From an uncultured Chlorobiaceae bacterium (GTDB lineage Bacteria > Bacteroidota > Chlorobiia > Chlorobiales > Chlorobiaceae): a stretch of DNA of 35,714 bases. Below are positions 3,775-33,478 of the stretch, one piece after another. Below the pieces are notes generated by a model that saw only the letters and a list, made by a program, of their open reading frames with translations, had not been told where the DNA came from and made no database searches. The stretch spans positions 1 to 35,714 of the forward strand of contig CAIJWE010000120.1 in assembly GCA_903824295.1 (NCBI GenBank). The letters are read 5' to 3'. The position numbers and the translations under genes were made by a program. The number at the start of each line of letters is the position of its first letter. Positions within the stretch are counted from its first letter, which is position 1.

Positions 3775-3821
3775 GCAGCTTGACAGCCACCGTTAAACCT
3801 TTGAATTTCCACGAAAAAAAA

Positions 3822-5894
3822 ATGGTTAGAAAAAATCTGCTTCTCATGATTGTTGCATTGGGAAGTACTGTGCCGTTATCTACAATACATGCCGGAACTA
3901 CAACTCCAGCCGTAACCGTCGTGACCTTCAGGCCAACGGCTGCCCAGGAAGAGGCAAGTAAATATATCAGTCAATATCTGATGCAGAACCACTACAGGAA
4001 GATATCAGTCAATGACTCTCTTTCTCAGCAGATACTCAATCGATACATTGACAATCTTGACGGCAGCAAAAGCTATTTTGTGGCAAGTGAAGTTGAAAGC
4101 CTTCGGCATGTATACGGAAACCGTATTGATGATGATTTTCTTGCCGGCAAGGCAAATGTCGGATTTGGAGTCTATAACTTCTTTCTTAAACGGGCCAAAG
4201 AAAAGATGCGGTTTATGAAGGCAACCGCTGATACCGTGCGTTTCAACTTTGCACAACCAGAAACCCTTGACCTCGATCGCAAGAGCGATCCCTGGCCCGC
4301 CGACAGGCGTCAACTCACCGAGTTATGGAAAAAAGAGCTGAAATACCAGTGGCTTAACCTGAAATATTCGGGAGAAAATAACAAGGGTATCCGTGAGGCT
4401 CTCACAAAAAGCTTTACGAACCGTCTGAACCTTTTGAACCGCCAGAAACCGGAAGACGCTTTCCAGGCCTATACCTACGCCCTTACAACGTCGTTTGATC
4501 CACATACAAACTATTTTTCTCCAGACGAGTATCAAAACTTTCAGATCGATATGAGTCGCTCTCTCGAGGGAATTGGGGCAAAACTGCAGACAGAAGGGGA
4601 GTTTACCGTTGTTAACGAGATTATTGCAGGAGGACCGGCATTTAAAAGCAACACACTGAAAAAAGGGGACAAAATTATTGGAGTTAGTCAGGGACGGAAC
4701 GGTGAGGTTGTTGATGTCTTTGGCTGGAGAATCAATGATGTGGTCAAATTGATACGCGGAAAGAAAAACACCATTGTCCGGCTGAAAATTCTTCCGGCAA
4801 GCCAGGGTGGACGGGGACCGGCGAAAATAGTCATGCTTTTGCGAGAGAAAGTCAACTTGCAGGAACAGGCTGCAAAGAAAAGCGTTATTCTGCAGAATGG
4901 AGAGCGGATCGGTGTTATTACGATACCTTCGTTTTATCTTGATTTCGAAGGTCAACAGCAGAACACTGGCAATTTCAACAGCACAAGCCGTGATGTTGCC
5001 CGAATTCTGAATGAACTGAATACAGAACATGTTGACGGGATTGTCATTGATCTGCGTGATAACGGAGGAGGTTCGCTTGAGGAGTCTGTGAATGTCACAG
5101 GACTGTTTATTCCTACAGGCCCTGTGGTGCAGATCAGCAACTCTTCAGGAGGAAAGATGGTGCTCAGGGACGAAGACCGAAGGGTGCTGTATAGTGGTCC
5201 GCTTGCAGTGCTTGTAAACCGTTACAGTGCATCTGCATCTGAAATATTTGCTGCAGCAATTCAGGATTACGGACGAGGTATTGTCATTGGCGAGAGAACA
5301 TTCGGAAAGGGAACTGTTCAAAGCCTCAAAAAACTTTCTGAGCTCAGATCGTTTACTTTTTTTGGCAAAAAGCCTGAACTCGGAGAGATCAAACTCACTG
5401 TTGCAAAATTTTACAGGATTTCTGGAGGCAGCACTCAGCATAAAGGTGTCGTGCCTGACATTATCATGCCTTCCATGATTGATACATCGGTTGTTGGAGA
5501 GGATACCTATAGCAGCAGTCTGCCATGGAGTACGATCTCCCGTTCATTTTATCGTCCGACAGGAGAGGTCAGCCCGGAAGAGATTGCGTTGCTCCGCCAG
5601 AGGCAGCAGGAACGCACACTGAAGAGCCGTTATTACCAGAGTTATCTGCATGACTTGAATACCCTGAACCAGATTCGCAAAAAAAAGGCAGTATCCCTTC
5701 AGGACTCGGCCTTCAAATCGGAAACAGAGCGGATAAAGCAGATTGAGGGGCAATGGATTGTGGATCAGGATTCGACCAAAAGCAAAAACAAGGATGTGCT
5801 GCTCAACCAGTCAGCCGCAGTTGTTTCTGATATGGTGGGATTTAAGGTGACCCAACGGCAAACTGTTACCCGCTCGGTGCCTTCACTGAATTAA
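3822..5894 (+). CDS. periplasmic C-terminal (tail-specific) processing protease, S41A, copy 1
   Basis: This is a 690-residue Tsp/Prc-type serine protease. The frame is open from a TTG at 3780, but the ATG at 3822 is preferred because it starts a signal peptide (MVRKNLLLM, then a hydrophobic core ending STIHA) and lines up with the paralogue at 6769. After the signal come a Tsp N-terminal domain (about 30-210, with [14 protein letters not shown] and [16 protein letters not shown]), a PDZ domain (about 230-330) and the S41 core. The Ser-Lys catalytic system is intact: SASASE with Ser471, Asp482 in QDYGRG and Lys496 in FGKGTVQ. A Tsp C-terminal extension of ~130 residues follows. Such proteases process or degrade periplasmic proteins from their C-terminus. 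The gene is divergent from fba and lies 114 bases before tatA. It is not CtpA-short type: its length matches the E. coli Tsp class. Confidence 0.9.
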   Translation: MVRKNLLLMIVALGSTVPLSTIHAGTTTPAVTVVTFRPTAAQEEASKYISQYLMQNHYRKISVNDSLSQQILNRYIDNLDGSKSYFVASEVESLRHVYGNRIDDDFLAGKANVGFGVYNFFLKRAKEKMRFMKATADTVRFNFAQPETLDLDRKSDPWPADRRQLTELWKKELKYQWLNLKYSGENNKGIREALTKSFTNRLNLLNRQKPEDAFQAYTYALTTSFDPHTNYFSPDEYQNFQIDMSRSLEGIGAKLQTEGEFTVVNEIIAGGPAFKSNTLKKGDKIIGVSQGRNGEVVDVFGWRINDVVKLIRGKKNTIVRLKILPASQGGRGPAKIVMLLREKVNLQEQAAKKSVILQNGERIGVITIPSFYLDFEGQQQNTGNFNSTSRDVARILNELNTEHVDGIVIDLRDNGGGSLEESVNVTGLFIPTGPVVQISNSSGGKMVLRDEDRRVLYSGPLAVLVNRYSASASEIFAAAIQDYGRGIVIGERTFGKGTVQSLKKLSELRSFTFFGKKPELGEIKLTVAKFYRISGGSTQHKGVVPDIIMPSMIDTSVVGEDTYSSSLPWSTISRSFYRPTGEVSPEEIALLRQRQQERTLKSRYYQSYLHDLNTLNQIRKKKAVSLQDSAFKSETERIKQIEGQWIVDQDSTKSKNKDVLLNQSAAVVSDMVGFKVTQRQTVTRSVPSLN

Positions 5895-6768: not shown

Positions 6769-8829
6769 ATGCTAAGAAGAAGTCTCTTTTTTTTCATGAT
6801 GGCATCGGGAAGTGTTTCCCCACTTTTTGCTCACAACCTGGTTGATCCAGCCGCATCTAAAAGTGCGACAGTCCTTAAGCCGACTGCTGCGCAGAAGGAG
6901 GCTGTAAACTATATCAGTAAATATCTGTTGCAGAATCACTACAGGAAGGTTTCAGTCAATGACTCCCTTTCGCAGCAGATATTTAATCGTTACATCGATA
7001 ATCTTGACGGCAGTAAGAGCTCCTTTCTGGCCAGTGATGTTGAACGTCTCAGAAAGTTGTATGGCAGCAATATTGATGACGAATTTCTTGCCGGTAAAGC
7101 AACTGCCGGATTTGACATTTACAACCTCTTTCTTAAGCGGGCCAGGGCGAAAATGCGGTATATGCGGGCTGCTGCCGATACCGTACGTCTGGATTTTTCA
7201 TCACCAGAAACCCTTGATCTTGATCGCAAGAGCGATCCATGGCCGGCTGACCAGCGGCAATTGAGCGAACTTTGGAGAAAAGAGCTGAAATACCAGTGGC
7301 TCAACCTGAAATATTCCGGAAAGAAAGACAAGGCCATTCGGGGTGTGCTTGCAAAAGGCTATAAAAGTCGTCTGAATCTTCTGAACCGCCAGAAGCCCGA
7401 AGATGCCTTTCACGCATACACGTATGCTTTGACAACCTCGTTCGATCCCCATACAAGCTATTTCTCTCCGGACGAATATCAAAACTTTCAGATTGGCATG
7501 AGCCGTTCACTCGAAGGGATTGGCGCAAAGCTCCAAACTGAAGGGGAGTATACCGTTGTCAATGAGCTGATTCCGGGAGGACCGGCCGTCAAAAGCAATA
7601 TCCTGAAAAAAGGGGATAAAATTATTGGTGTCGGTCAGGGAAAAGTTGCTGCTGTTATTGATGTCACCGGCTGGAGAATCAATGATGTGGTAAAGTTGAT
7701 CCGGGGAAAAAAAGGTACCATGGTCCGCCTGAAAATCCTCTCGGCAAGCCAGGGTGGACGCGGGCCTGAAAAAATAATCGAACTTATCCGCGACAAGGTC
7801 AACCTGCAGGAGCAGGCTGCAAAGAAACGTATTGTTGTGCAGGGCACGAAAAAAATCGGCATTATTACCATCCCGTCGTTTTACCTTGATTTTGAAGCTG
7901 AGCAGCAGAATACAGGCAATTACAACAGCACAAGCCGTGATGTCGCCCGTATTCTGGAGGAACTGAATGCTGAGCACGTTGACGGTATCGTTATTGATCT
8001 TCGTGATAATGGTGGTGGTTCGCTTGAAGAGTCTGTCAGTGTTACCGGCCTTTTTATTCCAAGTGGGCCCGTCGTTCAAATCAGTAATTCAATCGGCGGC
8101 AAAATGGTACTCAAGGACGAAGATAGCAGGGCGCAGTATGGTGGGCCGCTTGCCGTGCTGGTCAATCGTTACAGTGCTTCGGCATCAGAAATTTTTGCTG
8201 CAGCCATTCAGGATTATGGCCGCGGCGTTATTGTCGGTGAGAGAACGTTTGGCAAGGGAAGCGTTCAAAGCCTTATCAAACTCTCAAGACCAGACTCTTT
8301 GACTGGAAAACGCCCTGAGCTTGGAGAGATAAAACTTACCATTGCAAAGTTTTACAGGATATCTGGAGGCAGCACTCAGCATAAAGGGGTTGAGGCCGAT
8401 ATTATCATGCCGTCGATGATTGATATGGCCAGAATTGGCGAGGATACCTACACAAGCAGTCTGCCCTGGAGCACGCTCTCCCCATCTTATTATACAAGCA
8501 CCTCAGAGATCACCCCTGAAAAGATTACGATGCTCCGGCAAAAATTTCAGGAACGATCGGCAAAAAATCCTCTCTATCAAAGCTATCTGCGTGATTTGGA
8601 TACCCTTGATCAAATTCGTAAAAAGAAGGCGGTTTCACTTCAGGATGCGACTGCCAAATCGGAAACAGAGACGATAAAACGGATTGAGAAAGCGTGGCTC
8701 AAGGAGCCTGACTCCGCCAAAGAGCTGACGAAGGACGAAGTGCTCAACCAGTCGGTATCCGTGGTTGCCGATCTGGCAGAGATAGAGGCTTTGCACCCGC
8801 AACTCAAAACTCTGCCGTTATCGCATTAA
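6769..8829 (+). CDS. periplasmic C-terminal (tail-specific) processing protease, S41A, copy 2
   Basis: The 686-residue product is a close paralogue of the protease at 3822, alignable from end to end with only small indels. It has its own signal peptide ([15 protein letters not shown], ending near PLFA), the Tsp N-terminal domain, PDZ domain, S41 core and C-terminal extension. The catalytic residues are all present and fall at the same numbers as in copy 1: Ser471 in SASASE, Asp482 in QDYGRG and Lys496 in FGKGSVQ. Differences concentrate in the mature N-terminus, the PDZ-adjacent region and the C-terminal tail, as expected if the two have diverged in substrate. The stop TAA (8827-8829) overlaps the argH stop on the other strand. 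The ATG at 6769 has no strong ribosome-binding site. Confidence 0.9.
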
Positions 8830-10208
8830 AGCTCTTTTTTTGCCATCTCGATCTGCAGTGCAACAGATTCAAAAGAGCAACTGCCATGAGTTTTTTTTGA
8901 GTTCACACTGACATCGGCCTTGAGGCAGTCGTAGATATCCGGATCAATAGCGTCACAGAACTCCCGGAACTTTTCTACCGGGATATTCGGCAGGGTAACA
9001 TCCGAGGCAATGCTCCAGGTTACAATTTTACCGGTAATGCGGTGAGCATCGCGAAATGGAATATCACGGCGCACAAGATATTCGGCTATTTCTGTAGCAA
9101 GGCTGAGATCTTCCGCTGTCAGTTTGGCCAGTCGTTCCTCCTTCAGCTTTGTATGCTCAAGCAGTTTGGCAAAAATGGAGATACTTCCGATCGTTGTCTC
9201 CGCACTGTCGAAAAGGGGTTGCTTATCTTCCTGCATGTCGCGATTGTAGGAGAGCGGGAGCCCTTTCATAATGGTCAGCATGGCCATAAGATTCCCGTAG
9301 ACTCTTCCCGTTTTACCCCTTACCAACTCGGCGATATCAGCATTTTTTTTCTGCGGCATGATTGACGACCCCGTTGCAAAAGCATCGCTGATTTCAAGAT
9401 AGCCGAACTCATAGGAACTCCAGAGAATCAAGTCTTCTGCAAACCGTGACAGGTGCATCATGATCACGGAACAGTCGGAGATGAACTCAATGACAACGTC
9501 GCGATCACTCACTGCGTCAATACTGTTTGAAAAAAGATCGTCAAAACCAAGCAGCACAGACGTTCTTTGTGCATTAAGCGGCAGCGTGCTGCCTGCAAAA
9601 GCTGCGGCACCGAGAGGGGAGATATTGACCCTTTTCATCAGATCACGCAGCCGCTGGCGATCGCGATTGAACATGTTAAAGTAAGCCAGATAGTAGTGTC
9701 CGGCAGAAATCGGCTGGGCTCGCTGGAGGTGGGTGTAACCGAAGATGATGGTTTGTTGGTAGCACTCTGCCTTTTCAACAAGAACCCCCAAGAGCACACC
9801 AAGAGCCTCCTGCAGTTCGGTAATCTGACGACGCATGTAAAGACGGGTATCAGTCGCAACCTGATCGTTGCGGCTCCGGCCAGAGTGAAGTTTTCCGGCG
9901 ACCGCCCCAACCTTCTCCTTAAGCCGGTTTTCAATGACGGTATGAATATCCTCGTCCTCCCAATGGGGAACAAGTGTACCAGTCGAAAGCTCTTCGTCAA
10001 TCTCCCTGAGTCCTGCAATAATTTGGGACGCATCAGCAACACTGACAATATTCTCTTCGGAAAGCATGGTAACATGGGCAATAGAGCCCAGAATATCCTC
10101 ACGATAGAGCTTTTTATCGACATGAACCGACGACGAAAATAAAAGCGCGTCGCGGTCAAAGGGTAATGAAAATCGGCTCTGCCAGAGTAATTCTTTCTTG
10201 CTGCTCAT
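8826..10208 (-). CDS. argH: argininosuccinate lyase
   Basis: The 460-residue enzyme catalyses the last step of arginine synthesis, splitting argininosuccinate into arginine and fumarate. The family signature [10 protein letters not shown] (about residues 280-289, mobile catalytic loop with the serine base) is intact, as are [14 protein letters not shown] (about 107-120), [10 protein letters not shown] (His of the active site) and [10 protein letters not shown]. Length is normal for the family. It is transcribed on the minus strand like the other arg genes but separated from argG by a 2.4-kb gene on the opposite strand, so it must have its own promoter in 10209-10537. Its stop shares the four bases TTAA with the stop of the convergent protease gene, leaving no room for a terminator between them. 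Confidence 0.96.
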
Positions 10209-22945: not shown

Positions 22946-25687
22946 TCAGACCGGGAGCTGATAGCGTTTTTCGCGAAACAGGCGGAGCAAAGCATCAACC
23001 ACTTCCGGGTCAAATTGCTGCACCCGATAGGTCTCAATTTCTTGAAGGGCTGCATCAAGGCCAAGGGCGGGTCGATAAGGGCGATTTGAGGCCATAGCTT
23101 CAAGCACATCGGCTACGGCAATGATGCGTGCTTCAATAAGTATCTCCTCTCCTTTCAGCCCCCGCGGATAACCGCTGCCGTCCATACGCTCGTGGTGCTC
23201 CCGGATGATTTCTGCAATTGGCAGAGGGAATTTGACATCCTTGAGGATTTGATAACCGTGTTCAGCATGAGTCTTGATGAGCTCAAACTCGATTGCTGAC
23301 AACTTACTCGGTTTGGAAAGTATCTCGGAGGGTATGCTCATTTTGCCAATGTCGTGCACCAATCCGATGAGGTGGAGCGTGTCGCTCTTCTCTTGACACC
23401 ACCCCATTTCCAGGGCTATATCCCTCGCAAGGATACCAACACGCCATTCATGACCTGCGGTGTAGGGATCATGGGCTTCCACGACTTTTGCAATTGCCCG
23501 GAGCGTGCTATGCATTGCGTTTTCCAACTGTTTTACATAGTCCCTTATCTTTTCTTCTGTAATTTTACCTTCGCTAATGTCTCGAGCGGTGACTACCGAG
23601 CCAACGATACAACCTTCCCTGTTGCGTATAGGGGCATAGTTGTAGCTTGCAAACCATGTTTCACCGCTATCCTTTCGCAGCAATCTAAATTGGTGTTCTA
23701 TACCGGCTTCACCTCGCAGAGCCCTCTGCACAGGCCAATGATCAACCGGAACAAGTTCTCCCGTCATCAGGTAGAGGTCGAGAAACTCTGGGTACTCATC
23801 AACCGTTTTGGCACACTCCTCCTTGTTTCTGAACCGGTGAACGGTTGAGAAGGCATCATTATAGTGGGTAACGTTTCCCTTGGCATCGGAGATAATAACG
23901 GAATCGCTCATATTGGTGAGAGCTGCTTCCAGTATTGACTTACCTTCTACAATCAAATGTTCTGCCTGCTTGCGTTCGGTAATGTTATCGAAGACGGCAA
24001 CAAAGTAGTCTTTTTGAACACTGTAGACAGAAATGTCAACCCAGATCATCAATGGTACGACGTAAAGCTCCATTCGTTCAGGTTGACCCGTTCTTGCAAC
24101 CCGTCCATAGATTTCAAGAATCTCAGGTTGTATTTGATGGATTCCCGGGATAAGCTCTGAAACTCTTTTGCCCTCAACCTCTCTCAGCCCGGTAATTTTT
24201 TCGAAGCTTGGGTTTACCTGTTCATAGATAAAATCAACCGGACGACCCTCTTCGAATATCATTCGGCAATAGGCAATGCCGTTGAGCATGTGGCCAAAGA
24301 GTGAACTGAATCGCTCATTACTTTCGAGAATCAGTTTTTCAGCAATCTGCTGATCGTTTATGTCCTCAATAGAGGCATAAATAAGTTCTTTCCCTTCAAT
24401 GATAATCCTGTTAATGGTTATTTCAACATCACGGATCAAGCCATCAGCCCGTTTGTGCTTTCGTATAATTCTGTTGAGTTTCGATGTTCCGACTTTCTTT
24501 GCATCATCCAGCAGGTTATCAACTGTTGATACAGAGATTTGTTCTGCCTGCATCAATTGACGTTCTTCAATCGTCCAACCATAAAACTTTGCAGCGGCAA
24601 GGTTGGCAGCCACGATATTGCGCGTAAGGGGATTGACAACCAGCATGATGGAGGTGTGGTTGTCAAAAAGCACCTTGAAGCGTTCTTTCTGTTTCTTGAG
24701 TGATTCTTCTGTATGCTTTTGTTCAGTGATATCAATAACCGTACCAATATAACGATTCACCTCTCCCTGTTTGTTGCGTAAAGGCTTGCCTCGGGACATG
24801 ATCCAGTGAACAGAACTGTCAGGATAACAGACCCGATATTCAACACTCATTTTTTGAGCTTTGTCAGCAGCTATTTGAACAGCCTGGATGGTGATCTCCC
24901 GGTCATCAGGATGAATCGTATCTGACCAGAGTTTGAACGATGGTTTTTCACAATCCTTTTTCAAACCGTACAAAGACCATAACTCGTCGGACCAGATATT
25001 TTCATTGGTTTTTAAATCCCATTGCCAAACACCAGCCTGTGCAGCTTCAAGAGCCTGCGTAAATCTGTTTTTACTCTCAAGGAGCTCCTCATCTATGCGT
25101 TTCTGCTCCGTGATATCCGAGAAGAGAATAACCAGGCTTGCATGTTCAGTCTCACTTGCTGCCGCTTCAATGCGAAAGGTGCGAAGAGAGTGAGCCGGAG
25201 GCTGGTCGGGAAGCGGAGGCAAAAGCCTCACCTCGCAGTTACCACGCACACTTTTAACGATCACGGTTTCGAGCAGGGTATCAATTGCGCAATAATCCTC
25301 TGGCAAAACAAATTGTTTAAAATGCATACCAATCAAGCTGGAGCGATCAACTCCAAGCAGCCTGGAGGACGTGAGATTCGCTTGCTCAATTTTGCTGTCC
25401 CTGCCCAAAGTCAAATAGCCGACTGGTGCAAAGTCATACAGTTCAGTGTACATCGTAAGACTTTCTTTCAGCTCAATCTTGCTTTGAGCCTGCTCTTTCT
25501 GCAGCATTTCAAGCTCTGTGTGGAGAACCTCCAGTTCATGGACAAACTCAGGCGTTGCTTCGGGTGACGGCGTCGTGCCAAGACTGGAATGCCGAGCGGT
25601 AAGGTCTTGTTTCTTCAGGCGATCTTCAGCAAGAGAGCGCAGCTCAGAAGGTGTGCCAGGGTTGCTATGCGGCTGCTTTTTTGCCAT
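22946..25687 (-). CDS. multi-PAS HD-GYP protein (c-di-GMP phosphodiesterase type)
   Basis: The 913-residue protein has no membrane segment. After a short coiled coil (about 45-85) come about five PAS modules (roughly 95-205, 215-330, 335-445, 455-570, 580-705) and a C-terminal HD-GYP domain (about 715-910). The HD pair is His778-Asp779 in VHDIGKMSIPSE, and HHERMDGSGYPRGLKGEE holds the GYP signature (839-841). HD-GYP enzymes hydrolyse c-di-GMP to pGpG/GMP and often control motility, adhesion or stress responses. The first, third and fourth PAS modules and the coiled coil resemble those in the divergent GGDEF protein at 25858, and the HD-GYP domain closely resembles the one at 30678. Start ATG at 25687 has a poor ribosome-binding site. 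It is transcribed away from the Kai cluster, with 170 bases between. Confidence 0.9.
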   Translation of the reverse strand: MAKKQPHSNPGTPSELRSLAEDRLKKQDLTARHSSLGTTPSPEATPEFVHELEVLHTELEMLQKEQAQSKIELKESLTMYTELYDFAPVGYLTLGRDSKIEQANLTSSRLLGVDRSSLIGMHFKQFVLPEDYCAIDTLLETVIVKSVRGNCEVRLLPPLPDQPPAHSLRTFRIEAAASETEHASLVILFSDITEQKRIDEELLESKNRFTQALEAAQAGVWQWDLKTNENIWSDELWSLYGLKKDCEKPSFKLWSDTIHPDDREITIQAVQIAADKAQKMSVEYRVCYPDSSVHWIMSRGKPLRNKQGEVNRYIGTVIDITEQKHTEESLKKQKERFKVLFDNHTSIMLVVNPLTRNIVAANLAAAKFYGWTIEERQLMQAEQISVSTVDNLLDDAKKVGTSKLNRIIRKHKRADGLIRDVEITINRIIIEGKELIYASIEDINDQQIAEKLILESNERFSSLFGHMLNGIAYCRMIFEEGRPVDFIYEQVNPSFEKITGLREVEGKRVSELIPGIHQIQPEILEIYGRVARTGQPERMELYVVPLMIWVDISVYSVQKDYFVAVFDNITERKQAEHLIVEGKSILEAALTNMSDSVIISDAKGNVTHYNDAFSTVHRFRNKEECAKTVDEYPEFLDLYLMTGELVPVDHWPVQRALRGEAGIEHQFRLLRKDSGETWFASYNYAPIRNREGCIVGSVVTARDISEGKITEEKIRDYVKQLENAMHSTLRAIAKVVEAHDPYTAGHEWRVGILARDIALEMGWCQEKSDTLHLIGLVHDIGKMSIPSEILSKPSKLSAIEFELIKTHAEHGYQILKDVKFPLPIAEIIREHHERMDGSGYPRGLKGEEILIEARIIAVADVLEAMASNRPYRPALGLDAALQEIETYRVQQFDPEVVDALLRLFREKRYQLPV

Positions 25688-25843
25688 GACGGGAGCTTAA
25701 ATTATTTTTTTGCATGGATAATAATGTAACTCAAGCGTTTTGAAAATAAAAAAATAAGTCAACTCTTTTCCACTACCGATTGACCTCCGGTTGAGGTTCG
25801 CAATTGCCTTTCAATCGCCAGTAAATCCAGAAATTATTACGCA

Positions 25844-25850
25844 AAGGAAG
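25844..25850 (+). promoter_or_regulatory. ribosome-binding site supporting a TTG start
   Basis: AAGGAAG seven bases before the TTG at 25858, supporting this non-ATG start for the GGDEF gene. Confidence 0.45.
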
Positions 25851-25857
25851 AGACTGT

Positions 25858-28407
25858 TTGAGCATAACAGGAACAGTGATCTATCCTGTCAACATCCAAG
25901 CCGACGATGGTATTGCCCTCAAGCAAGGCTATGCCGCTGCAAAGGTATTGTTCAAGAGAATTGTAAAAAAAAGCGTAAATTCCGTAAGATATTTGTTCTA
26001 TTGTCTGTGCACAAGCAAAAACATAGCGGTGAAAAAAAACATTAATCATGCAGATAACAACGCTTCCGATTTGCTATGCAGCGCTGAAAATCGTCTGCAG
26101 GAAGAGCTTAAAAACCGATCAGATCTATCTTCCTCATCCAGGGATGCTGTTCTGTTGTTTCAGGAGCTTTTGCTTCTCTGCAGAGAGCTTGAAGCGCAGA
26201 GAAAAAAGCTTTGTCAATCGAGAGAGCGGACCAAAAAGAGTCTGAAGCGCTACAGCGATCTGTATACTTATGCGCCTCTATGCTATTTGTCGCTGGCGCC
26301 GAATGGCAGGATACTCAAAGCCAATCGTTTTGCGGCCAAGATGTTCGCTCTTCGTCGCTCCTTCTTGATCGGAGAACGTTTTGACCGCTTTATTGTGCCC
26401 GCAGACACCCCCGTCTATAATACCCTGATGGAGCGTGCCTGTAAAAGCAGAAAGCATGAATATGGTGAAATCAGCCTTTTAGGTGGTGACGCCTTGCCCT
26501 CGCGTCATCGAAAGTTCTGTCTGGATGTCATGGTCGCCGATGACGGGAAAGAGTATCTCATGATACTTTCTGACGTGACCTACAAAAAAAAGGTCATTCA
26601 GGATTCCCTGACCGTGCTCACCGAAAGAGACGCCCATCATGTCAATGTCATCAACATGATTCGGAACGGTTACATTTTTGCCCGTGTGGTTTATGAAAAT
26701 GAAAAAGCGACTGATTTTGTCCATGAAGAGGTCAATCCTGGCTATGAGAAAATAACCGGACTCAAGAATGTCATTGGAAAGAAAATAACGGAGGTTTTTC
26801 CTGATGTAAGGCGCACTCAGCCTGAATTTATCGATAAACACCTCAGAGTATCCGAAACAGGGGATTCCGATCGGTTCACGATCTACCTTGAACCTTTGCA
26901 TAAATGGTTCGACATCTCGGTCTACAGCCAGAAAAAAGGCTTTTTCTTTGCGTTAATCGACGACATCACCGATACCAAGAATGCAGAAATAAATTTGAAG
27001 ATAAGCGAGCAGCGGTTCAGAAACATGTTTCAGGAGCATTCAGCCATTATGCTGCTCATCAATCCCGATAGCGGGTTCATTATAGAGGCGAACAGTGCCG
27101 CTACCAGATTTTACGGATGGTCGATCGAAGAGCTCCGGACTATGCGAATAGAGGAAATCATTAGCCGGACACCCGAAGAGATCAAATTTTTTTTGGAGAA
27201 ACGCTGGACAGAAGACAACAACCAGCCTCTCTATCGTCATCGCAGGGCAGACAAATCCCTTCGGGATGTTGAGGTCTACAGCAGTACCATGGTCATAGCT
27301 GGCGAAACGCTGCGCTATACTGTTGTCCATGACATTACCGAGCGGCTGCGTCACGAAATTGCCACAGCATTCTACATCTCCCTTCTGGAAGTCATCGATA
27401 CCTCGACGATAAAGCAACTTCTGCAGATGTCGATTGATAAAGCCGAATTGCTTACCGACAGTTCCATCGGTTTTTTTCACTTTGTTGACGATGACCAGAG
27501 CATGCTCACGCTGCAGCAATGGTCAACCAATACCTTAAACGTGATGTGCAAAGTAAAGGGAGACGATAATCATTATCGTGTCGATGAGGCCGGCGTCTGG
27601 GCCGATGCCCTGCGGGAAAGAAGGGTTATTATCCACAACGATTTTGCCTCACTCCCAAGTCGAAAAGGATTGTCGGAGGGCCATGCGACTGTTATCAGGG
27701 AGGTGATTATTCCGATTTTTCGTCATGAAAAAATTGTTGCAATACTTGGCGTTGGCAATAAGCTTGTAAATTATGATGAGGATGACGTTAGATTGCTTAC
27801 TATTGTTGCCGATGCAGCATGGGAAGTTGCTGCAAAAAAAATCGGTGAGGAGGAACGCATAACACTGCTCGCCCAGCAATGCCTTGTTGAGCAACTCGCC
27901 ATGCACGATTCATTGACCGGTTTGCCGAACCGGCGTCTCCTCTCAGAGCGTATAGCGCTAAGCCTGGCCCAATGTCGACGGAACAAATCCATGGCAGCCT
28001 TGATGATGTTTGATTTGGACAAATTTAAACCGGTCAACGATACCTTTGGTCATGCTGTCGGCGATATAGTGCTGCAGCAAGTGGCAACGCGCACTTTGGA
28101 AATCCTGCATCGAAGCAGTGATTCCATTGCCCGTCTCGGCGGTGATGAGTTTGTTCTTCTTATGCCGCAAATAGACGCAATATCGAATGCGGTTGCCATT
28201 GCCGAAAAAATCCTCAACAAGATAAGAGAACCGTTCATCATCGAAGGTCATACCATCAATATCTCATGCAGTATCGGTATCGCAGTTTTCCCTGATCATG
28301 GCGAAAACGAACTGACGCTGATGAGGCATGCTGACGATGCCATGTATAGTGCGAAAAAACAAGGGAGGGACAATGTAAAGGTATTTGAAGCCCTCGCAAT
28401 CCCATGA
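25858..28407 (+). CDS. PAS/GAF-containing diguanylate cyclase (GGDEF)
   Basis: The 849-residue soluble protein makes c-di-GMP by its C-terminal domain. Domains: an N-terminal coiled-coil region (about 85-125), three PAS modules (roughly 130-250, 265-375, 380-500), a GAF domain (about 505-665) and GGDEF (about 680-845). The active-site GGDEF (761-765) is intact, preceded by RSSD exactly five residues before it, the product-inhibition I-site (RxxD). DSLTGLPNR, DLDKFKPVND and SIGIAVFPDHG complete the domain. The start is uncertain: TTG 25858 has a fair ribosome-binding site (25844-25850), no ATG occurs before the first PAS module, and GTG 26029 is an alternative that drops 57 residues of unremarkable sequence. 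Its PAS modules resemble those of the divergent HD-GYP protein. It precedes kaiC on the same strand by 135 bases. Confidence 0.88.
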   Translation: MSITGTVIYPVNIQADDGIALKQGYAAAKVLFKRIVKKSVNSVRYLFYCLCTSKNIAVKKNINHADNNASDLLCSAENRLQEELKNRSDLSSSSRDAVLLFQELLLLCRELEAQRKKLCQSRERTKKSLKRYSDLYTYAPLCYLSLAPNGRILKANRFAAKMFALRRSFLIGERFDRFIVPADTPVYNTLMERACKSRKHEYGEISLLGGDALPSRHRKFCLDVMVADDGKEYLMILSDVTYKKKVIQDSLTVLTERDAHHVNVINMIRNGYIFARVVYENEKATDFVHEEVNPGYEKITGLKNVIGKKITEVFPDVRRTQPEFIDKHLRVSETGDSDRFTIYLEPLHKWFDISVYSQKKGFFFALIDDITDTKNAEINLKISEQRFRNMFQEHSAIMLLINPDSGFIIEANSAATRFYGWSIEELRTMRIEEIISRTPEEIKFFLEKRWTEDNNQPLYRHRRADKSLRDVEVYSSTMVIAGETLRYTVVHDITERLRHEIATAFYISLLEVIDTSTIKQLLQMSIDKAELLTDSSIGFFHFVDDDQSMLTLQQWSTNTLNVMCKVKGDDNHYRVDEAGVWADALRERRVIIHNDFASLPSRKGLSEGHATVIREVIIPIFRHEKIVAILGVGNKLVNYDEDDVRLLTIVADAAWEVAAKKIGEEERITLLAQQCLVEQLAMHDSLTGLPNRRLLSERIALSLAQCRRNKSMAALMMFDLDKFKPVNDTFGHAVGDIVLQQVATRTLEILHRSSDSIARLGGDEFVLLMPQIDAISNAVAIAEKILNKIREPFIIEGHTINISCSIGIAVFPDHGENELTLMRHADDAMYSAKKQGRDNVKVFEALAIP

Positions 28408-28542
28408 CAGGCATGATGGTTATTATCTGTTTTCTCTACCGGGAAGATAAATAATGGGATGCTCAAAAGCCGTGAAGGGAGGTCGTATCAAGAACATGTT
28501 ACCGCATTCTGGTCAATTGAAATCATGAAGCTGAAATACAGT

Positions 28543-30303
28543 ATGGCAAAAGCAAAAGAAAATCTGAAACCAAAGTTGACGGCGGAACAGAGGCCGCAGC
28601 TTCCCAAGGCGTTAACAGGGATTGAAGGATTAGATATCATTACCGAGGGCGGCCTGCCGAAGGGCCGGGCGTCACTCATTTGCGGAGGAGCAGGTACCGG
28701 AAAGACGTTGCTTGCCATGGAGTTTTTGCTCAGAGGTGCAACGCAATATGATGAACCCGGCGTCTTGATGGCGTTTGAAGAATCGACCAACGATCTGATC
28801 ACCAATGTCGCCTCAATCGGCTTTGACCTGCATGGGTTGATTGCAAGCAAAAAGATTGTTGTCGATTTCGTTTATATCGATCGAAATGAAATAGTTGAAG
28901 CTGGAGAGTACAACCTGGATGCCCTGTTCATCCGATTGAGTGCCGCAATTGATTCCATTGGCGCCAAACGCGTCGTCCTTGATACCATTGAATCACTCTT
29001 CAGCAACCTGCCCAATCCTGCCATTTTGCGTGCTGAATTGCGCCGTCTGTTTTTTTGGCTCAAGGAGAAGGGTGTTACAGCGGTCATTACTGCAGAAGGC
29101 GGCACCGACACCCTTTCCCGTCACGGTATAGAAGAGTACGTTTCTGACTGTGTGATTAAAGTAAGTGTCAGCATTGAGGAACGGGTTGCTTCACGAAGAT
29201 TACGTATTGTGAAATATCGCGGCACATCGCACGGCACCAATGAGTTTCCTTTCCTTATTGATGGAAATGGCATTTCTCTCATACCAATTACTTCTTCAAG
29301 TCTGGAGCACATAGTCTCAACGACGAGAGTTTCCAGCGGCATCCAAAGGTTAGACGCTATGCTTGGAGGCAACGGGTTCTTTGAGGACAGCGTCATCATG
29401 ATTTCCGGTTCGCCCGGCACGGGTAAGACCACCTTTATGGCACATTTTGCGGATGCAGCCTGTCGGCGCAATGAGCGCGTTGTCTATTTTTCCTTCGAGG
29501 AGTCGTCGGATCAAATCAAAAGAAATATGAGTTCGGTTGGGTTAAACCTCGACCATTGGGTAAAAAAAGGTCTTCTGGTCATGGAATGCAGGAGGATTAC
29601 CCAGTATGGGCTGGATATGCATTTGCTCCTGGCTCAAAAACTGATCGCCGAGCACGCCCCCAAAGTTGTCATCATGGATCCTGTTACAAGCTTTGATGAT
29701 ATTGCAAACACCAGTGACGTCAAAAGAATAGTCATGAAGTTTGTTGACCTGATGAAATCTCTTGGCATCACGATCATGTTTGGCAGCTTGACGCCGAGTG
29801 AAGTGCAATCAGATAGTTCCTCAATTAATATATCATCAATCATTGATTCATGGATTTTATTGAGGGATCTTGAAAGTAATGGGGAACGAAGTCGTACTAT
29901 CTTTGTTCTCAAGTCACGCGGCATGAGCCACTCCAATCAGGTTCGGGAATTTTTGATGACAGATCACGGCGTTGAAATATGTGATGTTTATATCGGCACA
30001 GGCGGGGTTGTAACAGGTGGAGCTCGCCTGAATATGCTGGCTCAGGAAAAGACATTGGCTCTTAAATTGCAGGAAGAGATAGAGCTTCGGCAATTTGATC
30101 TGGAAAACAAGCGGAGTGTTTTAGATTCCAGGATCGCGGCCATGCGAGCTGAATTCGCTGCCCAGGAAGCCAGCAATCTCAAAATGATTGCCCAGGAAAA
30201 AAACGCTCAAACGCAACTAAACCAGGACCGAATTGCAATGGGGATGGCACGTAACGCTGATAAACATAATGCGCCGTTAAAAGCCAAAAGGAAATCAAAA
30301 TGA
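28543..30303 (+). CDS. kaiC: KaiC-family double-domain ATPase
   Basis: The 586-residue protein has two RecA-like domains. CI carries Walker A GGAGTGKT (Lys54) and the catalytic Glu pair in FEES (79-80); CII carries GSPGTGKT (Lys295) and FEES (319-320). Both sites look active. Where cyanobacterial KaiC has phospho-sites Ser431-Thr432, this protein has Ser431-Ser432 in NISSIIDSW, at the same numbers when started at 28543. After the core there is an ~85-residue charged coiled-coil tail (from about 500, LAQEKTLALKLQEEIELRQF onward), ending in lysines, as in non-cyanobacterial KaiC types. The frame is open to ATG 28459; ATG 28543 is chosen because it leaves the usual ~25 residues before GIEGLD. 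kaiB follows after 36 bases; no kaiA is present. Autophosphorylation is plausible but unproven. Confidence 0.93.
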   Translation: MAKAKENLKPKLTAEQRPQLPKALTGIEGLDIITEGGLPKGRASLICGGAGTGKTLLAMEFLLRGATQYDEPGVLMAFEESTNDLITNVASIGFDLHGLIASKKIVVDFVYIDRNEIVEAGEYNLDALFIRLSAAIDSIGAKRVVLDTIESLFSNLPNPAILRAELRRLFFWLKEKGVTAVITAEGGTDTLSRHGIEEYVSDCVIKVSVSIEERVASRRLRIVKYRGTSHGTNEFPFLIDGNGISLIPITSSSLEHIVSTTRVSSGIQRLDAMLGGNGFFEDSVIMISGSPGTGKTTFMAHFADAACRRNERVVYFSFEESSDQIKRNMSSVGLNLDHWVKKGLLVMECRRITQYGLDMHLLLAQKLIAEHAPKVVIMDPVTSFDDIANTSDVKRIVMKFVDLMKSLGITIMFGSLTPSEVQSDSSSINISSIIDSWILLRDLESNGERSRTIFVLKSRGMSHSNQVREFLMTDHGVEICDVYIGTGGVVTGGARLNMLAQEKTLALKLQEEIELRQFDLENKRSVLDSRIAAMRAEFAAQEASNLKMIAQEKNAQTQLNQDRIAMGMARNADKHNAPLKAKRKSK

Positions 30304-30339
30304 AAGCAGGAATAGTCGATGTAACTTCAAGGCTGGCAA

Positions 30340-30675
30340 ATGAGTGATAAACCAATTGACTTAAGAGCGCATAAAAAAACCGACACGGCGAACGATCCCT
30401 CCAATAAATGGCTTTTACGGTTGTATGTGGCCGGAACTACCGTACATTCAGTGTTGGCTATTACCAATATCAAGAGGATTTGTGAAGAAAAACTGGATGG
30501 GCGGTACGTTCTTGAGGTGATTGATCTGTATCAGCAGCCTCTGTTGGCTGCCGGTCATCAGATCATTGCCATCCCGACACTCATCAAAGAGCTTCCCCCT
30601 CCTCTACGCCGTATTATCGGCGACCTGTCAGATACCGAGAAGGTACTTGTCGGTTTGGATTTGAAACCGTTATAA
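30340..30675 (+). CDS. kaiB: KaiB-like protein
   Basis: The 111-residue protein is a KaiB homologue. After a ~20-residue charged leader it has the thioredoxin-like core typical of KaiB: LRLYVAGTTVHSVLAITN, then CEEKLDGRYVLEVIDLYQQP, then IPTLIKELPPPLRRIIGDLSD and VLVGLDL. In cyanobacteria KaiB switches fold and binds the CI ring of phosphorylated KaiC, antagonising KaiA. Without KaiA here, its role would be to report or modulate the state of KaiC. The extended N-terminus distinguishes it from the ~102-residue cyanobacterial protein. It starts 36 bases after kaiC, with AAGG upstream of the ATG, and its stop lies two bases before the next ATG, so the three genes are tightly coupled. Confidence 0.93.
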   Translation: MSDKPIDLRAHKKTDTANDPSNKWLLRLYVAGTTVHSVLAITNIKRICEEKLDGRYVLEVIDLYQQPLLAAGHQIIAIPTLIKELPPPLRRIIGDLSDTEKVLVGLDLKPL

Positions 30676-30677
30676 CG

Positions 30678-31844
30678 ATGAAAGCTGCATTGAAATCCAA
30701 AGCAGAACTCTCCCGGGAAGTAGATGAGTTGCGCACTGCATTGCAGGAAGCTCAAGCAACCCTGAATGCCATTCGCGAGGGTGCTGTTGATGCTTTTGTG
30801 GGTTCCGGTACGTCTGGTGAGCATATTTACTCTCTGTCCAATGCTGACCAACCCTATCGGATATTGCTTGAGGAGATGAGTGAAGGCGCCCTGACCCTGA
30901 CGCCTGATGGTCTTATTTTATTCTGTAACAAGCGGTTTGCTGAGATGGTGAGCTCTCCCCTGAACATGGTGATTGGCAGCAACCTTCAAATCTGGGTTGA
31001 TCCTGAATATCGAACGATTCTTGAATCGCTCATGAACATGGATGCTACCGCAAAACATCGCGGTGAATTGCTGTTGGTTACCAACGATGGAGATCGACTC
31101 CCCATTTATATTTCGATTGGTAACGTTCATGTTGGCAAAGAGGCTGATATTTATTGTCTTGTAGCTACCGACCTTACCGAAGTCAAGCAGATCGAGGAGA
31201 TCGTCGCCGCTAAAAAAATGTCACAAGCTACGTTAAAAGCATCTCATGAACTGCAGCAGAGCCTGGAAGAGTCAATCAAAGCGATAGCCAATACGGTCGA
31301 ATCCCGCGATGAATATACTGCCGGCCACATGCGTCGTGTTGGGCAATTGGCCCCGGCGATTGCAAGGGAGTTGGGCTTATCGGAAGAGACTATCCATGGT
31401 ATTGAGCTGGCCTCAACTATTCATGATGTAGGGAAGATCAGTATTCCGATTGAAATTCTGACTAAGCCGGCAAAGCTCAGCAAAATCGAATATCTGTTGA
31501 TTCAAACCCATGTCGAGGCAGGCTATGACATTATGAAAAATATTGTATTTCCATGGCCGATTGCTCTTCTCATCTTGCAGCATCATGAAAGAATGGATGG
31601 AAGCGGATATCCGCAAGGACTGAAGGGTGAAGATATCTTGCTTGAGTCGAGAATTATTGCGGTGTCAGACGTCATTGAAGCTATGGCGTCTCGTCGTCCT
31701 TATCGCGCCGAGCTTGGGATTGATGCCGCACTGGCAGAAATCAAGCAAGGCCGTGGAACTCTTTATGACCAAACTGTCGTGGATGCTTGCGTAAGGCTTT
31801 TTGAAGAAAAAAGGTTTTCTTTTGCCCCAAAAAGCACTTTTTAA
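30678..31844 (+). CDS. PAS-HD-GYP protein (c-di-GMP phosphodiesterase type) in kaiBC unit
   Basis: The 388-residue protein begins with a coiled coil (about 5-35, SREVDELRTALQEAQATL) and a segment (IREGAVDAFV, then IYSL) that I recognise from the N-termini of sensor kinases found beside kaiBC in other bacteria. A PAS domain (about 60-170) follows, then HD-GYP (about 190-380) with His249-Asp250 in TIHDVGKISIP and GYP at 310-312. The output is therefore a c-di-GMP phosphodiesterase instead of a kinase. The HD-GYP domain is closely related to that of the protein at 22946. It starts two bases after kaiB, implying translational coupling and a functional link to KaiB/KaiC. No membrane segment is present. 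No strong terminator is seen behind it. Confidence 0.9.
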   Translation: MKAALKSKAELSREVDELRTALQEAQATLNAIREGAVDAFVGSGTSGEHIYSLSNADQPYRILLEEMSEGALTLTPDGLILFCNKRFAEMVSSPLNMVIGSNLQIWVDPEYRTILESLMNMDATAKHRGELLLVTNDGDRLPIYISIGNVHVGKEADIYCLVATDLTEVKQIEEIVAAKKMSQATLKASHELQQSLEESIKAIANTVESRDEYTAGHMRRVGQLAPAIARELGLSEETIHGIELASTIHDVGKISIPIEILTKPAKLSKIEYLLIQTHVEAGYDIMKNIVFPWPIALLILQHHERMDGSGYPQGLKGEDILLESRIIAVSDVIEAMASRRPYRAELGIDAALAEIKQGRGTLYDQTVVDACVRLFEEKRFSFAPKSTF

Positions 31845-31959: not shown

Positions 31960-32598
31960 TCATGAAAACGGATCAAACTCTGCTTTTGAGGCAAAGCAGA
32001 CCGGGCAGCTCCACTGGCAGGACAGCTCAACAAAGGGAGTGCCCTCCTTTATCCAGCTTTCAGGATCACCTTCCGCCGGATCATAGAGGTAGCCGCACTC
32101 CCGGCACATCCAGGTATTGGATTCACACTTGTTCAGGGCTGTTCCATCCTCAAGAAGCTTTCTGAAAACCACCATCTCTGACTGAGCAAAGCCCTGCGCC
32201 CGGTAAAATTGCTGTGCCGCCTCGTTATTGCGGTCGGTGAGGAGCGTGATGCGGCCGAATCCCTCGCTGCGGGCAAAATCCACAGCGTGATTGATCAGCA
32301 GGGTGCCGAGCCCCTTGTTGCGCCATGCAGGCGCAACAACCATATCTTCAAGCAAGGCGGCTTTTCGGCCAAGAACGGTACTTACCGTAAAAAGGAGCAT
32401 CACCATCCCTTCAATCACTCCATCAATTTCAACAACAAAGATCCTGCCCATTTCCGGGTTACGGATGATCATCGAGAGCGCTCGCGACTGCGCCTCAGCA
32501 TCAGGGTCAAACTCCTGCTCCTGAGCGAACAGGATTCCCAGAAGCTCGGCACACCTCGCCACATCACGCTCTTCAACTGTTCTTGTTGCGGGTATCAT
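31960..32598 (-). CDS. GNAT acetyltransferase fused to C-terminal rubredoxin domain
   Basis: The 212-residue protein has two parts. Residues ~1-150 are a GNAT acetyltransferase: LLEDMVVAPAWRNKGLGTLLI is the acetyl-CoA pyrophosphate loop (R/Q-x-x-G-x-G/A type), followed by LLTDRNNEAAQQFYRAQGF. Residues ~160-212 are a rubredoxin domain with WMCRECGYLYDPAEGDPES, then GTPF and WSCPVCFASKAEF, giving the four iron-binding cysteines (CxxC...CPxC). Rubredoxin is normally a separate ~52-residue electron carrier; the linker here is only about ten residues. The frame is also open from a GTG at 32604, two codons upstream. Neither the acetyl acceptor nor any redox partner is apparent from the neighbours. 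It is convergent with the kai unit across 115 bases. Confidence 0.85.
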   Translation of the reverse strand: MIPATRTVEERDVARCAELLGILFAQEQEFDPDAEAQSRALSMIIRNPEMGRIFVVEIDGVIEGMVMLLFTVSTVLGRKAALLEDMVVAPAWRNKGLGTLLINHAVDFARSEGFGRITLLTDRNNEAAQQFYRAQGFAQSEMVVFRKLLEDGTALNKCESNTWMCRECGYLYDPAEGDPESWIKEGTPFVELSCQWSCPVCFASKAEFDPFS

Positions 32599-32710
32599 GG
32601 TCACAACTTATGCTCTTTTATTAAAATATTCTACCCTTTCACAAGGTTCATACATGCCATCAAGTTCATGATCATTCCTTGAGATTTCAAAACTTTTTTT
32701 GTGCAACGGC

Positions 32711-33478
32711 TCACTTCTGTTGCTGTGCAATAAAGAAATACCAGCCCAGTGTCGTCGATTTCAGAAAAATTGAACTCATTTTCTTGCCGTGCAGCGTGTA
32801 GTTGAATACCCCCTGATCCTTGGTCAAAACGGTTTTAAATGCGTCGCCAAGGCTTTCGTCACCCACATCGCTGACGCTCTTGAACATGCGGTCAACATTT
32901 CTGTGTAGAACGATCATGTTATCAGAGTCGAGGGCATAAAAATAGGCGTTATCCGGCAATTTTGTATCAGAATCAAGCAGAGCTGACAGCAGACGGATCC
33001 TTACGGAGACGCCAACGGCCGCGACAACTTTTCCATTCACCATCACTGGAGTGGCAACAATCACCGAACGGTGGCCGGTCGATTTGCTGATCACCAGGTC
33101 ACCAACAACGTCCTGACCCGACATGAGTTTCGGAAAATAGTTGCGATCCTTCAAATTCTGGTCGCTTACTCCTCCAGTTTCCGTTGAAAAATAACTGCCA
33201 TCAGGCAGAGCAAACCACACCGTTGCATCGGTAGCAAGGTCATTGCTGAAACGATCAAGCAAGGGCTTGACTGATTGCCAATTGGCCGACTGGGCTTCTG
33301 AAGTCAATGCAATGACCCTTGCTGTACGCAAAACACCACCCAAATGATCTTCAGCCAGCCCCTTATAGGTGCCAAGGGTGACCTGGGGATCCAGTTTGAG
33401 TGAGGCTGATTCGGCCCGAACTGTTAACAAAAAAAACATAACGATTACAGAGATAATCAGCGAAAAAATCTTTGCCAT
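32711..33478 (-). CDS. secreted stand-alone Cache (dCache/PDC-like) sensor protein
   Basis: The 255-residue protein starts with a signal sequence (hydrophobic core about residues 4-20, likely cleavage after AESA). The rest looks like an extracytoplasmic double-Cache domain as found in chemoreceptors and kinases: a long helix (VLRTARVIALTSEAQ), FALPDGSYFSTETGG, RNYFPKLMSGQDVVGDLVISKSTG, VATPVMVNGKVVAAVGVSVR, then a distal module with NAYFYALDSDNMIVLHRN and a final STTLGWYFFIAQQ strand. No second transmembrane helix, HAMP or output domain follows, so it is a soluble periplasmic ligand-binding protein that would need a partner. It has a strong ribosome-binding site AGGAGA (33485-33490) six bases before the ATG. 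It lies alone between the GNAT-rubredoxin gene and a long intergenic region. Confidence 0.8.
   Translation of the reverse strand: MAKIFSLIISVIVMFFLLTVRAESASLKLDPQVTLGTYKGLAEDHLGGVLRTARVIALTSEAQSANWQSVKPLLDRFSNDLATDATVWFALPDGSYFSTETGGVSDQNLKDRNYFPKLMSGQDVVGDLVISKSTGHRSVIVATPVMVNGKVVAAVGVSVRIRLLSALLDSDTKLPDNAYFYALDSDNMIVLHRNVDRMFKSVSDVGDESLGDAFKTVLTKDQGVFNYTLHGKKMSSIFLKSTTLGWYFFIAQQQK

Follow-up and report, generated by a model that had tools for sequence, protein, structure and literature searches.

The stretch of DNA analysed here, referred to as the window, is a contig of 35,714 bases (G000:C120) from the 2.85-Mb genome of an uncultured Chlorobiaceae bacterium, a family represented by 86 genomes in our collection. 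Its plus strand carries a row of four genes encoding a PAS-GAF-GGDEF protein, KaiC, KaiB and a PAS-HD-GYP protein. This row had been recognized in a preliminary description of the window and was confirmed by open reading frames (ORFs), Pfam matches and sequence motifs (Table 1), as was the close spacing of the last two genes, the stop of kaiB lying 2 bp from the start of the HD-GYP gene. Position 25858 is simply the most upstream TTG, and the real start of the GGDEF gene is probably further in. The start of kaiC is probably 28543, because ORFs from three relatives align from residue 29, so the gap between the GGDEF gene and kaiC is 51 or about 135 bp, depending on which of its two starts is used. 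Just upstream, beyond the range of the preliminary description, lies a divergent PAS-HD-GYP gene. Its product is possibly an associated hydrolase of cyclic dimeric guanosine monophosphate (c-di-GMP) that is inconstant among relatives.

Table 1. Positions in the window of the kai genes and the associated signalling genes
Feature	Position	Strand	Evidence
PAS(multiple)-HD-GYP protein, divergent neighbour	22946..25687	-	Pfam HD_5 E 1.7e-41
PAS-GAF-GGDEF, predicted diguanylate cyclase	25858..28407, maximal ORF; GGDEF domain 27898-28371	+	Pfam GGDEF E 3.3e-49
kaiC: double KaiC ATPase, C-terminal coiled-coil extension	28459..30303, likely start 28543	+	NCBIfam PRK09302 667 bits
kaiB	30340..30675	+	Pfam KaiB E 4.4e-26; best solved-chain match 8fwj_M
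MOD: kaiB-linked N-terminal module (helix, beta-hairpin, PAS) of HD-GYP protein	30678..31214	+	alignments A1/A4, model
MOD-HD-GYP protein, predicted c-di-GMP phosphodiesterase	30678..31844	+	Pfam PAS + HD_5 E 2.4e-36

The Kai proteins and the predicted c-di-GMP enzymes

KaiC contains two Pfam KaiC ATPase stretches with two Walker A motifs (GGAGTGKT at residue 76 and GSPGTGKT at residue 317) and two FEES motifs (at 106 and 346), in keeping with the initial observation that both ATPase sites are intact. Residues 49-595, the C-terminal coiled coil included, align with KaiC of Rhodobacter (Cereibacter) sphaeroides (8dba), and the two proteins are 47% identical over 553 columns. The phosphosite pair of the window's KaiC, S459/S460, aligns with the pair that reads Glu-Glu in the 8fwi sequence, the R. 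sphaeroides S413E/S414E phosphomimetic. KaiB shares 63% identity with its R. sphaeroides counterpart across 83 residues and is the one KaiB-family match in the window's genome, in which SasA and RpaA were not searched for by name. KaiA, described earlier as missing from the locus, was found in none of the 86 family genomes, with a positive Synechococcus elongatus control. The HD-GYP partner protein gave no KaiB match in Pfam and no HisKA or HATPase match.

Judged by sequence, the locus has the traits of the R. sphaeroides-type hourglass, namely two P-loop ATPase domains, paired phosphosites in the CII domain, a C-terminal extension, and KaiB without KaiA. In R. sphaeroides, KaiC autophosphorylates constitutively and the hourglass is reset by the ratio of adenosine triphosphate to adenosine diphosphate (ATP/ADP), while KaiB binds the CI domain and accelerates ATP hydrolysis by KaiC (PMC10076222). 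From the resemblance of the two KaiC proteins we infer that the same core working applies here.

The HD-GYP protein encoded after kaiB is predicted to be a c-di-GMP phosphodiesterase. Residues H217, H249-D250, H278, H302-H303 and D331 are invariant across all 10 aligned sequences, the His/Asp set aligns with that of PmGH (4mcw), and a DGSGYP motif is present. The set and the GYP motif are shared with the HD-GYP phosphodiesterases PmGH, PA4781 (4r8z) and V-cGAP3 (5z7c), from which the protein differs in its N-terminus, described below. A further difference is that the Glu near the first His of PmGH is replaced by Tyr213, and for this reason a two-metal rather than a three-metal site is predicted, where we take this Glu and the other residues to be metal ligands. 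The upstream GGDEF protein has an intact GGDEF motif and an RxxD motif five residues before it (HRSSDSIARLGGDEF); by the usual spacing rule this is the intact I-site given in the preliminary description. Searches of the window's genome gave five matches each for GGDEF and HD_5; of these ten, three fall within 22946-31844. In simulated draws three of 10 random genes fell within some five-gene stretch in 0.064% of cases, a figure that assumes 2600 genes and was obtained after the cluster had been noticed.

The order kaiC-kaiB-HD-GYP was found in every locus of the genus that is complete, six in all (the window and L039 to L043). In each of them the gap between kaiB and the HD-GYP gene is 2-3 bp, and the protein after kaiB begins with the same N-terminal module followed by HD-GYP. 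The neighbourhood search among relatives proposed in the preliminary description thus bore out this three-gene unit. The ratio of nonsynonymous to synonymous substitution (dN/dS) between the window and its relatives was 0.20-0.27 for kaiC, 0.08-0.16 for kaiB and 0.18-0.25 for the HD-GYP gene, indicating purifying selection on all three. The description had also placed kaiBC between enzymes of c-di-GMP synthesis and degradation, and here the HD-GYP side stood and the GGDEF side proved inconstant. A GGDEF-family gene is nearby in five of the six loci, immediately before kaiC in the window, L041 (357 bp away) and L043 (429 bp away), and on the downstream side of the HD-GYP gene in L039, L040, L041 and L043; the L039 contig stops just upstream of kaiC. 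The GGDEF motif is intact in the three upstream genes and in the downstream gene of L040. The downstream genes of L041, L043 and L039, the last also shortened, read GGDQF. L042, the closest relative (KaiC 89% identical over 586 aligned residues), has no GGDEF gene beside kaiBC and carries lolE directly upstream of kaiC. Genes similar to the divergent HD-GYP gene are found in L041, where it is split into two ORFs, and in L043; there is none in L042. The locus of G052 (L044, positions 1-587) retains remnants of the N-terminal part of a GGDEF gene, then of kaiC, then, where the contig stops, a fragment of kaiB, an order indicating that the adjacency of GGDEF gene and kaiC once existed in this genome and has since decayed.

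Several smaller observations were made on these loci. The I-site (RSSD) is intact in all three GGDQF genes (L039 9709-10863, L041 6504-7838 and L043 6216-7583, all on the minus strand), and their products are perhaps c-di-GMP receptors rather than cyclases, which is of note given that no PilZ match was found in the window's genome. In G065 (L045, about 8830-9322) a KaiB fragment of 47 positions lies beside a fragment that resembles the divergent HD-GYP protein at its N-terminus. Synonymous divergence between the window and L042 was 0.22 for kaiC, 0.33 for the HD-GYP gene, 0.45 for lolE, 0.67 for argC and 0.50 for kaiB; it looks as if part of the kai unit had been exchanged between lineages more recently, a pattern that kaiB does not fit.

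A module linked to KaiB and its exchangeable output domains

At the N-terminus of the HD-GYP protein, ~177 residues form a module, here called MOD, consisting of a helix, a beta-hairpin and a PAS domain. A model based on 70 sequences (predicted local distance difference test score, pLDDT, 86) has a long helix at residues 2-33 and a beta-hairpin at 39-52, followed by the PAS domain, whose terminal helix would continue into the effector. Comparison with the PDB matched the PAS part (about residues 55-172), with FixL, DosP and LOV sensors among the matches, and barely covered the first ~53 residues, so a new fold is not claimed. For the MOD-HD-GYP protein at full length, a model built on 10 sequences reached a pLDDT of 47 and was set aside save as a weak hint.

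In other Bacteroidota MOD also starts the protein encoded after kaiB, and the remainder of that protein is usually a histidine kinase. Scoring at most eight first-look candidates per genome, full-length MOD was found in 27 of 394 Bacteroidota genomes: 27 of the 36 with KaiB and none of the 358 without it. These matches scored at least 198 bits, and the next match (70 bits) covered the PAS part only; two weak matches (44-46 bits, in G148 and G342) also extend into the N-terminal half. Since 20 rows of alignment A1 were taken from Bacteroidota loci that were later searched, adjacency in this set is partly built in. The absence of MOD from KaiB-negative genomes is unaffected by that choice, as is the Burkholderiales survey, which covered 250 genomes from the order to which Polynucleobacter genome G395 belongs. 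There, at a cut-off of E up to 1e-20, MOD was found in five genomes and KaiB in 12, and all five MOD genes adjoin kaiB. Falling short of this cut-off, G410 and G519 have a weaker full-length MOD after kaiB (107 and 100 bits), and G654 gives a very weak match (26 bits). Fisher's test gave p = 2e-34 and 1e-7 for the counts of the two surveys, with phylogeny ignored.

When 117 kaiB loci were read gene by gene, MOD was present in the protein after kaiB in 99 (94 of 112 without the five loci that had been picked for MOD). The median gap between kaiB and the MOD gene is 2 bp, and 34 pairs overlap. Among the named non-duplicate loci (L104 to L180) MOD follows kaiB in 68 of 77; the 80 named loci are the best 80 of at least 581 and so are biased towards close KaiBs. 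L101 to L103 were omitted as copies of L040, L039 and L041, and L044, L045 and L100 as fragmentary. The MOD-bearing named loci include Bacteroidetes, Proteobacteria, Acidobacteria, Verrucomicrobia, Nitrospirae, an Anaerolineales metagenome-assembled genome (MAG) and Methanoculleus archaea. The 18 loci in which MOD is not right after kaiB include several cut by contig ends (L108, L113, L114 and L138 among them), one that is split (L135) and one in which MOD lies one ORF further on (L171). A plasmid search returned 16 records with KaiB, including plasmid B of R. sphaeroides 2.4.1, where kaiCB is followed by the gene of a histidine kinase whose N-terminus is MOD (84 bits). MOD is thereby tied to the best-studied KaiA-less system.

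The domains that follow MOD vary, and comprise histidine kinase (63 of the 99 loci), GGDEF or GGDEF-EAL, HD-GYP, SpoIIE phosphatase, or none. First labels gave 56 histidine kinases, 15 proteins with no further domain, 10 HD-GYP, eight GGDEF, nine others and one cut off. With Pfam, seven of the nine others proved to be kinases (L155, L173, L166, L169, L172, L174, L175), L136 a SpoIIE phosphatase and L153 PAS only. Within the GGDEF group Pfam identified GGDEF-EAL in L110, L119 and L124 and GGDEF without EAL in L217; on visual inspection L109, L124 and L129 have a degenerate GGDEF motif. On a KaiB+MOD tree of 98 rows, one cut row being left out, the corrected labels imply 11 changes of output class (17 before the Pfam relabelling), and the starred branches force at least seven for the kinase label. 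The preliminary suggestion that the output here is a second messenger in place of a two-component kinase agrees with the finding that in most of the other kaiBC loci read the domain attached to this module is a histidine kinase.

This exchange bears on the direction in which the signal would run. MOD proteins might be inputs, the PAS domain sensing redox, oxygen or another ligand and modulating KaiBC, with HD-GYP as a side or feedback branch. The PAS fold of the model, with its matches to FixL, DosP and LOV sensors, favours this, and the kinase of the R. sphaeroides kaiBC operon has been suggested to transduce redox signals to KaiBC (PMC5520375). We nevertheless regard it as unlikely. While MOD stays, the domain attached to it switches between the kinase, GGDEF/EAL, HD-GYP and SpoIIE classes, and a c-di-GMP enzyme has no evident route to KaiC. 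A kinase is imaginable as an input, but an HD-GYP, EAL or SpoIIE enzyme hardly so, and for this reason we read MOD proteins as outputs.

In the order of G395, kaiB is followed by a gene without strong MOD in G495 (PAS-HD-GYP, with a 4-bp overlap), G592 and G654 (GGDEF). The G495 locus (L207) reads kaiC-kaiB and then a PAS-HD-GYP gene without the full module, and is likely a separate joining of Kai to HD-GYP. Kai units seem to have been linked to c-di-GMP enzymes more than once. A MOD with a SpoIIE-type phosphatase follows kaiB-kaiB in an Actinomycetes MAG (L136, 6589-8823). MOD alone, in proteins of 232-246 residues, follows kaiB in L088, L116, L117, L123, L125, L126, L127, L130, L133, L134, L140, L143, L147 and L168; these 14 loci form one group in the tree, and a kinase gene follows in some.

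The MOD-HD-GYP forms fall into one group with support of 100/100 in the KaiC tree and 100/99 in the KaiB+MOD tree. It consists of the Chlorobiaceae and four rows from betaproteobacteria, namely Polynucleobacter sp. JS-Safj-400b-B2, a Comamonadaceae MAG, a beta proteobacterium MAG, and G456, which belongs to the order of the Polynucleobacter row. Both trees place the Chlorobiaceae inside the betaproteobacterial rows, and a separate betaproteobacterial clade was rejected on KaiC (approximately unbiased test, p-AU 0.0003). This shared group indicates horizontal transfer; the KaiBC unit was probably acquired horizontally by some Chlorobiaceae, and transfer into them from a Burkholderiales-like donor is the simplest reading of the trees. 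It could then be supposed that the genes are a horizontally acquired, partly decaying cassette of co-located and functionally separate signalling genes. The placement of the Chlorobiaceae is consistent with this, as is the patchy presence of KaiB (eight of the 86 family genomes, with fragments in G052 and G065). Against it, MOD occurs solely in KaiB-bearing genomes in both surveys, the three genes are under purifying selection, and gaps of a few bases are kept across lineages, so that we consider this explanation very improbable.

A candidate KaiBC switch with second-messenger output

The explanation that we favour, at about an even chance of being correct, is that the window carries a KaiA-less KaiBC unit of the R. 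sphaeroides type with a dedicated partner that has a c-di-GMP phosphodiesterase where most relatives have a histidine kinase. In this reading KaiBC would act as an energy or time switch, with c-di-GMP hydrolysis as the output replacing a two-component relay. By homology to R. sphaeroides, KaiC would autophosphorylate at S459/S460 at high ATP/ADP and be dephosphorylated as the ratio falls, and KaiB would bind the CI ring and speed ATP hydrolysis (both after PMC10076222). The near-exclusive linkage of MOD to KaiB, together with the exchange of effectors, suggests that MOD may read the state of KaiB/KaiC, directly or jointly with a PAS ligand. The HD-GYP domain would then be switched on or off, and the level of c-di-GMP could track the energy or time state without a phosphorelay. 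The PAS-GAF-GGDEF and divergent PAS-HD-GYP proteins, which are less conserved, may account for opposing or background turnover in the strain. More tentatively, and at somewhat less than an even chance, we propose that the helix-hairpin-PAS module serves as a dedicated adaptor of KaiBC and as the output receptor of KaiA-less Kai systems in bacteria and archaea, with interchangeable effectors; for green sulfur bacteria and part of the Burkholderiales this effector would be HD-GYP, and a Kai timer would control a second messenger directly.

It is conceivable that the unit is an energy or stress switch and not a timer, KaiBC reporting ATP/ADP and the c-di-GMP output serving as a starvation or dark response. 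KaiA is absent, KaiC is closest to the R. sphaeroides protein, whose reset needs an external change in ATP/ADP, and a stress-response role has been cited for the Legionella kai operon (PMC5520375). Nothing separates such a switch from an hourglass timer, however, the difference being purely kinetic and beyond sequence, and we give it a low probability.

A number of results weigh against a KaiBC switch acting through c-di-GMP. KaiB is present in only eight of the 86 family genomes and fragmentary in two of those, so the system is dispensable. The variable GGDEF partner described above belongs here, both its absence beside kaiBC in the closest relative and the GGDQF motif of three downstream genes. 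The window's genome has no PilZ receptor match despite its five GGDEF and five HD-GYP matches, and nine of the 36 KaiB-bearing Bacteroidota genomes are without full MOD. With regard to origin, the two trees differ on the row nearest the Chlorobiaceae, and on KaiB+MOD a separate betaproteobacterial clade was not significantly rejected (p-AU 0.056). In S. elongatus, induced degradation of c-di-GMP altered period and phase, apparently indirectly, and c-di-GMP had no direct action on the Kai proteins in vitro (PMC13001216). The last result also speaks against a c-di-GMP enzyme as an input to KaiC.

Among known systems, the R. sphaeroides hourglass is alike in its kaiC-kaiB-MOD order, lack of KaiA, coiled coil and paired phosphoserines; it differs in that the third protein is an HWE histidine kinase instead of HD-GYP and the genes are on a plasmid. 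Operons of kaiC, kaiB and a PAS/histidine kinase gene have been described, among them the proto-circadian timer of Rhodopseudomonas palustris (PMC4794148), which resembles the window in having kaiC-kaiB followed by a PAS protein and differs in its kinase output, a likeness drawn from gene order without sequence comparison. A kaiC-kaiB-PAS kinase-receiver operon is reported from Bradyrhizobium (PMC3899966). The neighbourhood of kaiBC and c-di-GMP enzymes is not new either: GGDEF/EAL genes beside kaiBC, next in line after kaiB, have been reported (PMC3164672), and in Thiodictyon a diguanylate cyclase lies beside kaiCBB, for which joint control of flotation was suggested (PMC5944118). In those loci the enzyme is GGDEF-EAL, whereas here it is HD-GYP and a GGDEF gene is found upstream of kaiC. 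MOD is present on the c-di-GMP enzyme of the named Thiohalophilus (L110) and Thiodictyon (L119) loci and is not described in the available parts of PMC3164672 or PMC5944118. The cyanobacterial KaiABC-SasA-RpaA clock shares KaiC and KaiB homologues and differs in possessing KaiA; the partner protein of the window is without a KaiB-like domain. In the open-licence literature, mostly partial text, no account of either kaiBC-HD-GYP units or the shared MOD was found. What appears to be new is therefore a KaiBC unit with a predicted HD-GYP second-messenger output and evidence pointing to a general KaiB-linked adaptor. MOD offers a concrete receptor candidate for how KaiBC relays its state without KaiA, SasA and RpaA and, if the proposal is true, a timer set by ATP/ADP would be linked to c-di-GMP in anaerobic phototrophs.

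Base composition, regulatory signals and neighbouring genes

Promoter and terminator scans gave 11 and 5 hits, against 9.5 (sd 3.5) and 6.8 (sd 2.2) in shuffled sequence; lying within the shuffled range, these counts are uninformative on cotranscription. The GC content of the kai unit (0.46-0.47) shows no useful difference from that of the window (0.478) and hence provides no evidence of transfer.

Downstream of the kai unit, on the minus strand, are a gene for a GNAT acetyltransferase with a fused C-terminal rubredoxin domain by Pfam (31960-32604), of which an 86% identical ortholog adjoins kaiBC in L042, and one for a stand-alone dCache sensor-domain protein to which Pfam gives no signalling domain (32711-33478). 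Elsewhere in the window, two long, similar and closely spaced proteins are encoded at 3780-5894 and 6769-8829 on the plus strand; they are perhaps the result of a duplication, and from their sequence we take them to resemble C-terminal processing proteases.

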